27,473 bases of DNA from a virus: the IMG/VR virus record IMGVR_UViG_3300048780_000008, positions 1 to 27,473 of that record. One strand, 5' to 3'. This document shows, one piece after another, positions 2,296-27,473 of the stretch (its first letter is position 1; each line of letters starts with the position of its first letter). A model generated the notes under the pieces. The model ran no database searches, was not told where the DNA came from, and saw only the letters and a list, made by a program, of their open reading frames with translations. The translations under genes were made by a program, and so were the position numbers.

Positions 2296-3793
2296 CTAAC
2301 CTCGACTTTATGTTGGGATTGTCCAGCACCGCCTTTGCAACCATCGCCACTTTGCCGAGCGTAGTGCTGCCAGTAACAGCCGTCGCTGCTGCTCCAGCAA
2401 CAGGCGTTCCAATCCCAATGATCTGATGGTTAGAGATGCGATTCACAGCACGCTCAAGAACTGGTTGCAAATCCAACAGTTTCCCCTCTGCGGCATTCAG
2501 GTTGCTGATTTCTGGAAACTGCGTAGCGATCTCTTCTTTCAGACCACGCGCAAGTGCCTTTTGAGCCTCAACCGTTGCGCTTCCCTGCTCTCCATATTTA
2601 CCCTTAAGCACACCATAGGTTCCCTGCTTCATGGCTTGCGCGTCAATAGCATTCATCGGAGGGGCTGGGGTTGGAGGAACTGCGGGTGTTCCACCATTCA
2701 TTACAGATCGCCCATACGCATCGAGTATTCCAGTTGGCTGAGGGGGGATAGCAGGGACACCCGGACGAGCTCCGCGCTCGGCGAGGAACTGCTGACGGGT
2801 CGCTTCGATAGCGTTCAAATCCGGCTGTGCAACAACTTGATTACCGAATCTATCGAGCGTTGGCTGAATGCGCGTTGCTACTGCGTTCGGATCAATCGTC
2901 CGTGTCGGGTCTTGCGCAATGGTTCCCTTGATCTTGTCGTTGAGATCGTCGATCAAGTCGCCGAGCTTCTCCACGCCTGCCTTGGATACCGGGATGGCAT
3001 TCTGAAGCCCGGTCTGCACCATCGAAGCCCGATCCGCTTGGCTGATAGTGGTTCCCGGCTTCATGGCGCTTTCGTATGCAGCCTCCGGCGTCTTGCCAAG
3101 CAGAACTGCGCGGCCCGCTACGTTCGGCACGGCATTCATCGCGGCCTTTGCGACTGGTGCGGCAATGCGTCCGCCTTCGTAGGCTCCTAACGCCTGCCCT
3201 GTCAAGTTCTCAGCTGCCAGCGGAACGCCGCCTTGTTGGTAATCGTTCTGTACTTGTTGCCCGATGGCCTTGGCAGTATCGATAGGATGGCGCACCGTGT
3301 TGTACAGGCCCTCTAACGTGTCGAGGGGGTGAATCACCGGCTGCACCATCGCCTTGACCGCTTGGCCACCAACTTGGAGCGCGCCCCCGAGAACACCTTG
3401 ATCGCGGCCACCAGAGCCGACAGGATTTGTGAGTGCATCCCAGTAGCTTGCCTTTGCAGCGTCTGGTACTTCGAGCGGAACCATTTTGAAACCCTTCGCT
3501 GCGGCATCGGGAACACTCTCAGCGGGGATATACCCATTTTCCCCGTCAGGAGAAGTCATCTGCACGGCCACTTTGAATCCTGCCTGCTTGGCTGCCGAAA
3601 CATTCGTAATCGGAACATCTCCCGTATGCCCATCGGGTGACAGCATCGTTATGGTGGTATTCTCCGGCGGAGGATTGTTTACGTTAGACACCTCTCCGCC
3701 ATTAGGAGGCGTGGAGATTCCTTCCCGAGAGGAATCTAGCGGAGGCCTTGGAGTGGCGCTGATGCCGGTATAAAGCTGCGGAGTGGTTGCCAT
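2144..3793 (-). CDS. Putative ejection/internal virion protein, 549 residues
   Basis: The start ATG overlaps the stop of the 543-residue gene upstream (TAATG). The N-terminus is Pro/Ser-rich. Two tandem copies of a roughly 27-residue module follow at about residues 49-75 and 79-105 (core SPDG-x-x-G-x-x-P, ending in AGFK or KGFK). A long Ala/Gly/Val-rich central part with helical stretches comes next, then a Pro-rich linker near residues 345-380 and an AAATAVTGSTT-like hydrophobic segment near residue 465. It is the third of three consecutive large genes in the place of the P22 ejection proteins (gp7, gp20, gp16), so a role in DNA delivery is inferred from position and composition. I see no enzymatic motif. 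Its last 50 codons are antisense to the plus-strand ORF at 2098. Confidence 0.7.
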   Translation of the reverse strand: MATTPQLYTGISATPRPPLDSSREGISTPPNGGEVSNVNNPPPENTTITMLSPDGHTGDVPITNVSAAKQAGFKVAVQMTSPDGENGYIPAESVPDAAAKGFKMVPLEVPDAAKASYWDALTNPVGSGGRDQGVLGGALQVGGQAVKAMVQPVIHPLDTLEGLYNTVRHPIDTAKAIGQQVQNDYQQGGVPLAAENLTGQALGAYEGGRIAAPVAKAAMNAVPNVAGRAVLLGKTPEAAYESAMKPGTTISQADRASMVQTGLQNAIPVSKAGVEKLGDLIDDLNDKIKGTIAQDPTRTIDPNAVATRIQPTLDRFGNQVVAQPDLNAIEATRQQFLAERGARPGVPAIPPQPTGILDAYGRSVMNGGTPAVPPTPAPPMNAIDAQAMKQGTYGVLKGKYGEQGSATVEAQKALARGLKEEIATQFPEISNLNAAEGKLLDLQPVLERAVNRISNHQIIGIGTPVAGAAATAVTGSTTLGKVAMVAKAVLDNPNIKSRLAIAVSKGGKIPYAQALARVQSYATSLGSFSSVGQENSTGDTPNQSAQPQQ

Positions 3794-25366: not shown

Positions 25367-25539
25367 GCGAACAAATCTCCCGACTGCGCCGGTTCTGGCG
25401 CTTTCTCTTTAGGGCCTTTGTTGTAACACGCAGTGCAGTAAGACGGGCGACCGCGGTTGACAGCCCACATTGTGTCCTTCCCGCACTTCTTGCAGTAGAT
25501 CGACGCCTCGACTGTGCTTTTCGTAAAGAAGTGTTTCAT
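25363..25539 (-). CDS. Zinc-ribbon peptide, 58 residues
   Basis: I translated this frame by hand: MKHFFTKSTVEASIYCKKCG, then KDTMWAVNRGRPSYCTACY. Two C-x-x-C pairs (CKKC, CTAC) 16 residues apart form a zinc ribbon. ATGA overlaps occur at both ends, coupling it to the genes on either side. Such peptides in phage replication clusters are usually nucleic-acid-binding; the target is unknown. Confidence 0.75.
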   Translation of the reverse strand: MKHFFTKSTVEASIYCKKCGKDTMWAVNRGRPSYCTACYNKGPKEKAPEPAQSGDLFA

Positions 25540-25964: not shown

Positions 25965-26706
25965 CGTCGTCACACACCCTTTCTTCAAATGCTCTACGGG
26001 CCGCTTCTTTGGGGCTCAACTTCGCATCCGCACGCGGCCAGGTCTGCGGAGCATCCCAATTCCCAGACATGAAAAACTTGTAACTCGATCCGTAAGACCA
26101 TTCCAGCAACGGGGAGGCCTGCTGGTATTCCACCCATCGGGCGATCATGTGCTCAATTGCAGTCTCGACGTTCCGGCCGGTTTCCTTCATGTGCACCGCC
26201 AAGAGCCGGTTCATCCCTGCCTGCTCTTTCATCCCGAAGATGCCGACGCTTTCTGAGAGGCAACGGGTGTCTACGCTATCGGGACTTTGATTGCCGGGGG
26301 TGTCTTCTGGTCTGTTCTGTATCTGCTCTGTTTCTGTTCTGTTCTGTTCTGGTGCCGTTACAGTAACGGGGATAACCGTTTCATGTAACGTTTCATCCTG
26401 TTTCTTAGTTTGTCTAAAGCGGCGAACACGATCAGTAGAACTATCTGATAAGAATTGACGGCGGTTCCAATTAAGGAGATTCCAATCTTCATCGATGAAT
26501 CCTTTTTCGATGAAAGCAGCCTTGGTTTTAGTGAGTTCCTCGTCACTTATCCGCCAATGAAACGCCCGCTCCGTTTCATGTAACGTTTCATCTTTACAGC
26601 GGGAACAGAACAGCATCACCAGGCGGCGCTGGAGAGCTTCACTCATCATTTGCACTTTAGGATCGTCTGAAAATTCCGAATACAATCTAAACCACGGATT
26701 TGCCAT
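25951..26706 (-). CDS. Phage replisome-organizer-like protein
   Basis: 251 residues from ATG 26706, which follows GAGAGAGGGAAGA; the longer frame to 26760 lies inside the upstream ORF. The N-terminus MANPWFRLYSEFSDDPKVQM, MSEALQRRLVMLFCSRC, then WRISDEELTKTKAAFIEKGF and NLLNWNRRQFLSDSSTDRVR is the pattern of phage replication proteins (WF..Y.E...D.K...L......vv.lW......G..........v.......f.e.gl......i.nW..rQ...D.s..R.R.yR). A linker of Glu/Gln/Thr and a C-terminal part with WVEYQQASPLLEWSYGSSYK, FFMSGNWDAPQTW follow, also common in such proteins. It probably binds the origin and recruits helicase. Confidence 0.75.
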   Translation of the reverse strand: MANPWFRLYSEFSDDPKVQMMSEALQRRLVMLFCSRCKDETLHETERAFHWRISDEELTKTKAAFIEKGFIDEDWNLLNWNRRQFLSDSSTDRVRRFRQTKKQDETLHETVIPVTVTAPEQNRTETEQIQNRPEDTPGNQSPDSVDTRCLSESVGIFGMKEQAGMNRLLAVHMKETGRNVETAIEHMIARWVEYQQASPLLEWSYGSSYKFFMSGNWDAPQTWPRADAKLSPKEAARRAFEERVCDDDEAQ

Positions 26707-26899
26707 TCTTCCCTCTCTCAGTAAGGCTGGTGGAGGAAGCTGAGAGACTTCCCCCACCACTTGCGGTCCCGGTGATCAGCCAGGGCACCCGATGTCGCCC
26801 GCCGCGCTCGCAGTGAGGACATCTGCCATCATAATGCACCTGCGCCCCGCGTTCAAGCAAAATCTGCAGGGACTTATGTCCCTTTTGTTGAGAGTTCAT
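26687..26899 (-). CDS. Small cysteine-containing protein, 70 residues
   Basis: ATG 26899 overlaps the methylase stop (ATGA); the longer frame to 27115 is inside the methylase. The product begins MNSQQKGHKSLQILLERGAQ and continues VHYDGRCPHCERGGRHRVPW. One C-x-x-C with nearby His could bind metal, alone or as a dimer. The last third is Ser/Gly-rich and overlaps the replication gene by 20 bases, carrying that gene's ribosome site. No family is recognised. Confidence 0.55.
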   Translation of the reverse strand: MNSQQKGHKSLQILLERGAQVHYDGRCPHCERGGRHRVPWLITGTASGGGSLSASSTSLTERGKNGKSVV

Positions 26900-27473
26900 G
26901 CAAAAAGTCTTTCCTGCGCCGATCTTAAGCAATGCGGACTGAAATAAACCCGCTCCTTTGAGGAGTTCTCGCGGGCGCGGTTCTTGCCCTGAGAACCATA
27001 GCCGCCTCTCGCCTTCCACTCCACGCAATCCCACGATCCCGGCATATCGTGTTCCCCCTCGTATCCGCAGAGCGCAATCCTGATTAGCGCGTCGTCTCCA
27101 TGCGCGATTGCCCACTCTCTGACCTCGTGCGCCACCGTGAGGCTATCGGTGCTGTAGAGGGCATCTGTGCGCCCGTCAAGGTATGGCGGATCGAGGAAGA
27201 CTCCCGTAGTACCAAGCTTGACCGTTGGCGTAGGGCCGCAAACTCGGGACCAGTCTCCGCAGCATACCCGCACGCGACGCAATCGTTTGGCTAGTTCGTT
27301 CATGTACTGAAACAAAAATTCCCGCGTTCCCGAGGTGCGGTCGCTTAGGCATTCGTCGCCGCCCGTTCCCGCGTTCCCGAGGTGCGGTAGCTGCCTGTTT
27401 ACTCCTCGACCCGCGTCCCCGAGGTGCGGTAGCTGCCTGTTTACTCCTCGACCCGCGTCCCCGAGGTGCGGTA
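26896..27473 (-). CDS. DNA adenine methylase (D12/Dam-like), 5'-partial
   Basis: The stop is at 26896 and the frame is open to the right edge (191 residues seen), so the start lies outside the window. An internal TTG at 27315 is not the start. LGTTGVFLDPPYLDGRT contains the catalytic DPPY motif of N6-adenine methyltransferases. Upstream, RRVRVCCGDWSRVCGPTP is a box I associate with phage members. Residues before that consist of repeats of LPHLGDAGRGVNRQ, then LPHLGNAGTGGDECLSDRTS and GTREFLFQYMNELAKRL. The enzyme methylates adenine in DNA, likely for protection or regulation. The AdoMet-binding N-terminal motif is outside the window. A multi-copy in-frame insert in the middle of the enzyme is odd. 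Confidence 0.85.
   Translation of the reverse strand, partial: PHLGDAGRGVNRQLPHLGDAGRGVNRQLPHLGNAGTGGDECLSDRTSGTREFLFQYMNELAKRLRRVRVCCGDWSRVCGPTPTVKLGTTGVFLDPPYLDGRTDALYSTDSLTVAHEVREWAIAHGDDALIRIALCGYEGEHDMPGSWDCVEWKARGGYGSQGKNRARENSSKERVYFSPHCLRSAQERLFA
27319..27341. repeat. Out-of-phase extra copy of the methylase repeat core
   Basis: These 23 bases are identical to 27366-27388 but lie 47 bases away, not a multiple of three. On the minus strand they are read as DRTSGTRE in the methylase core, while the other copy is read as LPHLGNAG. Confidence 0.85.
27379..27473. repeat. 42 bp tandem repeat in the methylase gene
   Basis: Two full identical 42-base units (27379-27420 and 27421-27462) and a partial third (27463-27473) run to the edge. 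Forty-two bases is fourteen codons, so the array keeps frame and encodes LPHLGDAGRGVNRQ repeatedly. A further degenerate copy lies at 27319-27341, out of phase. Confidence 0.9.

Follow-up and report, generated by a model that had tools for sequence, protein, structure and literature searches.

The locus raises the question of how one stretch of DNA came to be read in two frames within a single enzyme, and whether the two readings still influence each other. The virus record IMGVR_UViG_3300048780_000008 is complete at 27,473 bp and was analysed as a whole (the window); its end falls inside a 42-bp tandem array in a gene resembling phage DNA methylases. An earlier note on this DNA had described a 42-base in-frame repeat and a 23-base stretch of it which recurs 47 bases away in a second frame, and both were confirmed by TRF and by exact matching. 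The features concerned are the following.

26896..27471, minus strand: predicted methylase, C-terminal 191 codons, in an open frame; the contig end truncates the gene and the 5' half is missing
26896..27317, minus strand: conserved catalytic half, from FLFQYMNELAKRLRRVRVCCGDW through DPPY to the stop codon, kept across 90 homologues
27321..27346, minus strand: frameshifted (+1) copy of KRPHLGNAG, read SDRTSGTR; 24/24 specified bases of the 26-nt unit template
27347..27360, minus strand: spacer encoding GDECL, from the last in-frame unit to the frameshifted unit, as read from the sequence
27361..27473, minus strand: in-frame 42-bp array (TRF), two units PHLGDAGRGVNRQL and the last partial unit PHLGNAGTG, running off the contig

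The window fragment lacks the N-terminal half and for this reason does not match PF02086. The full-length, near-identical homologue L028 (L numbers denote homologous loci) passes the gathering cut-off of PF02086 MethyltransfD12 (4e-11, 43.5 bits; cut-off 22). The fold of its AlphaFold model, in which the catalytic half mostly has a pLDDT of ~90, resembles those of E. coli Dam, T4Dam and DpnM, and the best Foldseek matches were E. coli Dam (E 3e-7 and 5e-8). The DPPY motif was invariant (90/90 homologues). With 41.7 bits, the curated cut-off of 114.85 for the Dam subfamily proper (TIGR00571, GATC methylases) was not reached. Judged by sequence and model, the window gene can be assigned as a phage Dam-like (MethyltransfD12) N6-adenine DNA methylase. 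The neighbouring genes are of phage type and encode a DnaD-like helicase loader, the small and large terminase, the portal and the major head protein. The helicase loader gene itself contains about nine imperfect copies of the pentanucleotide TTCTG (window 26305-26351, TRF score 62); as this unit has 5 bases and lies in a coding frame, a change in its number could cause a frameshift.

TRF described the array as a 42-base period at 27368-27473 with 2.5 copies, 98% match and a score of 205. The repeat encodes LPHLGDAGRGVNRQ on the minus strand within the open frame 26896-27471, and the consensus of the 14-aa unit is LPHLG[DN]AGxGV[NH]R[QK]. In the 156 canonical units counted, positions G5, G8, G10 and R13 were invariant, the invariance of G8, G10 and R13 being wholly or almost wholly imposed by the search pattern, and variability was greatest at positions 1, 2, 6, 9, 12 and 14. 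The 42-bp unit is a multiple of three and the units are in frame in the listed homologues, which speaks against on/off phase variation. A residue shared by two units used the same codon in 92.7% of cases within an array vs 42.7% between loci, which is a mark of concerted evolution in the array. Concerted evolution of coding minisatellites makes the units of one genome alike and lets those of different genomes diverge; here the units are indeed homogenised within each genome.

Phage sequences that are otherwise identical carry different arrays. The window and L109 show 0 differences from 27343 back to 21041 (6.3 kb) and 14 in the last 130 bp, and the comparison with L028 gave 0 differences over 3.4 kb and 18 in the array; the short-read repeat assembly caveat is strongest for the window, since its contig ends in the array. 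Loci L002, L003 and L028, whose methylase flanks are identical to each other and to the window, have 6, 5 and 5 units, and the close group L004/L005/L009 has 3, 6 and 2 units, these array sequences and copy numbers coming mainly from metagenome contigs in which partial mis-assembly is possible. The close groups L023/L024 and L073/L075/L158/L181/L182/L185 are likewise variable in their arrays. In L073, two adjacent methylase genes (1451-2323 and 2596-3501) on one phage contig have different array units, and L075, L158, L181, L182 and L185, from the same metagenome, carry further array types. Outside the array, L110 differs from the window by a 6-base insertion (GCGCCG as aligned) at window position 25413 and by five substitutions, and L109 by none.

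From the model, the array is expected to occupy the place of the DNA-binding hairpin of E. coli Dam: it is flanked by the final helix of the bundle on one side and by the helix preceding the DPPY half on the other. The hairpin of E. coli Dam comprises residues 118-139 (PMC10073500). The sequence alignment to E. coli Dam reaches the N-terminal motifs only, and the correspondence is therefore based on the order of the elements. This position makes a role in specificity plausible. Such a role is the essence of an alternative view of the locus, or an extension of the main one, according to which the array is a specificity module whose unit number and type alter the methylated sequence and so help to evade host restriction, with the variability being selected. 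The location of the array after the helical bundle and ahead of the DPPY half, the extreme variability between otherwise identical phages and the units themselves, which are glycine-rich with an invariant Arg and several variable positions, fit this view. However, neutral minisatellite turnover would look alike, and no structure was predicted for the units: in the AlphaFold models, neither the five units of L028 (residues 133-210, pLDDT <50) nor the one unit of the homologue L188 (residues 127-132 and 137-148, pLDDT <50) formed a recognisable hairpin. We therefore regard a selected specificity module as possible but rather doubtful.

The second-frame segment lies next to the array. The plus-strand sequence TTCCCGCGTTCCCGAGGTGCGGT occurs at 27319-27341 and at 27366-27388 with 23 identical bases, and since the offset is 47 the two sites are out of frame: the former is read as DRTSGTRE, the latter as PHLGNAG. 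With up to 3 mismatches allowed, the 20-nt core of the match is found at 4 sites of the window, every one of them in the methylase gene, against 0 expected from shuffling. Synonymous codon randomisation of the core segment gave a match of 15 nt at most and never 23 (300 trials), and in 5/5 tested loci the randomised sequences remained below the observed match, so that chance and codon bias were rejected. A second overlapping ORF in the PHLG frame of the copy was dismissed as well, at least one stop being present in 26/27 loci, with the window as the exception. A dispersed or mobile element was rejected since, in the phage records searched, the motif was found at the methylase array only (present in 7/8). 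Shared DNA links the repeat to the second-frame segment in the window and in 26 other loci. The offset is 2 mod 3 in all 27 copy-bearing loci, which come from many metagenomes and one MAG, and this recurrence of the frame relation excludes an assembly error as the cause of the 47-base offset, a possibility raised in the earlier note.

The family was traced in two viral scans, which gave 309 and 296 stretches encoding relatives (the best 80 of the 309 from the first scan being kept), and 19 more relatives were taken from bacterial genome records, largely MAGs; only 3 came from named phages. Almost every homologue has the 14-aa repeat, those lacking SGTR included, and the suggestion of LPHLGDAG-type repeats in other phage methylases proved to be right. 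The methylases of L032 (ORF from 1747) and L053 are also interrupted between the ND.D motif and NFWRA, in both cases by a large insert which stays in frame and shows intein-like features (CVAPDTRILMSDLSW..., CLAPETRLLTTDLQW...TFIAEGLASHNC). In a tree of 113 rows, calculated with the repeat region left out, the SGTR copy occurs in 27 rows, and a second-frame copy was found also in L064. The 27 loci fall into one 32-row branch (SH-aLRT 97), 5 members of which have no copy; a smaller, careful tree resolved the copy-bearing loci poorly, yet just 4 changes were needed. Exact out-of-frame matches of 15-34 nt characterise the SGTR loci and are nearly absent from the remaining homologues; against the unit template, the 27 loci scored 20-24 of 24 and the others usually no more than 14. 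Where the copy is missing, the last repeat leads directly into the catalytic half. As the array is nearly family-wide and SGTR is limited to a clade, the array is older and SGTR derived. DRTSGTRE had been noticed to lead into a conserved block, and it does adjoin RLRRVRVCCGDW; SGTR itself is not conserved in the family and does not belong to the conserved core.

Two loci illustrate the likely origin of the segment. In L014 and L027, the copy can be aligned with the tandem array of the same locus over 47-48 nt with one 1-nt gap: the entire last unit is kept and one base is lost in the Val codon (GTA to GA, GTG to GG), so that TGVHR[KQ]RPHLGDAG is now read TG[DG]IASDLTSGT. The spacer is missing in both and the frames are separated by the 1-nt deletion only. 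Inspection of L014 and L025 shows that their frame is restored by the loss of 2 nt behind the copy. The other copy-bearing members have extra in-frame spacer codons, which give offsets of 44 to 56, and the frameshifted terminal unit generally reads (I/V)(A)SDLTSGTR in place of (HR)KRPHLGNAG. Together with the wide distribution of the array, the whole unit minus one base in L014/L027 argues that the repeat gave rise to SGTR, which is a terminal array unit shifted by +1 and not the core of the enzyme. We suggest that the last unit was shifted when the Val codon lost 1 nt (GTN to GN) and that a second indel just downstream would have restored the frame of the catalytic half, an order of events read off the simplest members and not from ancestral inference. 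The shifted segment probably survived because the loop is unstructured and tolerant. In L058, compared with L020, the frameshifted unit was apparently lost by an in-frame deletion which left its last residues (GDAGGETREYLLQYM vs GNAGRGDECLSYRTLGTREFLFQYM).

L064 has a VHLG-type array, and its copy matches this array in 24/26 bases (best elsewhere 20) and shows the same Val-codon deletion as L014/L027. This frameshifted unit with a different array sequence gives partial support to the idea, put forward in the earlier note, of a recurrent process. However, L064 pairs with L052, which has no copy, in both trees and a single clade was not rejected (AU p = 0.77), so that an independent second origin was not established.

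The copy follows the array of its own genome. At three variable silent sites in 27 loci, the copy base equalled the own-array base in 80/81 cases (Pro3 26/27, His3 27/27, Leu3 27/27 loci), the only mismatch being in L013 (array CCT vs copy CCG); because the loci are related, just about six independent array changes lie behind this tracking, which is too few for a sign test. The changes required in the arrays on the tree were at least 3 for Pro3, 1 for His3 and 2 for Leu3. When the copy's own number of changes was placed at random on the tree, the maximum was 70-71/81 vs 80 observed (P = 5e-5, 20,000 trials), and this result held on two trees and with the conservative (most favourable) root. 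Copies also reflect the type of the donor unit: in L020 and L082 a KLPHLG unit is copied and gives SYRT/SYPT, and in most others KRPHLG gives SDLT. We consider it likely that the position of the DNA-recognition loop is filled by a 42-bp minisatellite whose terminal unit was frameshifted and is still overwritten from the in-frame units. The covariation suggests that the shifted unit continues to be treated as homologous DNA and to be overwritten repeatedly, and non-reciprocal exchange between units irrespective of frame could proceed by gene conversion, slippage or template switching.

The absence of any ongoing tracking, with a single old frameshift followed by independent divergence and a resemblance due to shared descent and codon bias, would agree with the L013 mismatch, with the restriction of the copy to a clade and with a tree which is only partly resolved. 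We consider this improbable since matches approaching completeness were obtained at sites that changed at least six times in the arrays, well above the maximum of the null, and L012, L011, L016, L082 and L031 show 27-34-nt exact identity to particular units. Maintenance of the ~20-nt sequence for a function as DNA or RNA in any frame, such as a protein-binding site or a recombination signal, would explain near-perfect copies whatever the frame, but the silent sites differ between phages and match within a genome only, distant homologues use other codons, and in 8 phage records the sequence did not turn up anywhere outside the array, all of which makes such a function very unlikely. The birth of the repeat by out-of-frame duplication of a pre-existing SGTR core with subsequent in-frame expansion, the direction proposed in the earlier note, can be virtually dismissed despite the 23 nt of DNA common to the two frames, as the family-wide array, the presence of SGTR in a minority of tree rows and the full-length unit with a 1-nt gap in L014/L027 reverse it.

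If the array overwrites the copy across frames, third-base changes that are silent in the array alter the amino acid encoded by the copy: CCG/CCT/CCC correspond to R/L/P, CTC/CTT to S/L and CAC/CAT to T/I. The locus would thus be a natural case of homogenisation at the DNA level overriding the reading frame, in which 20-30 bases stay identical while encoding different peptides and silent drift at one place turns into amino-acid change a few dozen bases off. More speculatively, the array might be an evolvable specificity module in which the number and type of units set the DNA bound and methylated and recombination, including conversion of the frameshifted unit, makes new variants; we think this unlikely on the present data. 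In any case, these phage methylases form a large family which has been little described and which carries a hypervariable insert where DNA recognition is expected.

We found no relevant open-licence literature on Dam-type phage methylases with a repeat array or on concerted evolution across frames. The family shares the N-terminal motifs FGGK and FFGSG, the five-helix region, DPPY and the fold with the Dam/MethyltransfD12 enzymes E. coli Dam, T4Dam and DpnM. In contrast to Dam, it has a 14-aa tandem array in place of the DNA-contacting hairpin, and its score is far under the cut-off of the Dam subfamily. In DOMO, the recombination-driven change of target-recognition domains (TRDs) in restriction-modification systems, whole TRDs move between two repeat-flanked positions of type I S or type IIG subunits (PMC3077401). 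DNA repeats in the specificity region of a methylase drive rearrangement in both cases, but in the window family the loop consists of the repeat itself, one unit of which is translated in a different frame. Phasevarion methylases with simple sequence repeats (PMC5149525, PMC10073500) similarly undergo changes in repeat number within a methylase gene, whereas the 42-bp unit keeps the frame and a change in copy number therefore alters length and not an on/off state. Unlike in other coding minisatellites, an out-of-frame unit joins in the exchange and turns silent changes into amino-acid changes. The processes involved, a coding minisatellite, concerted evolution and recombination in the recognition region of a methylase, are thus known ones, and what is unusual is homogenisation that crosses reading frames.
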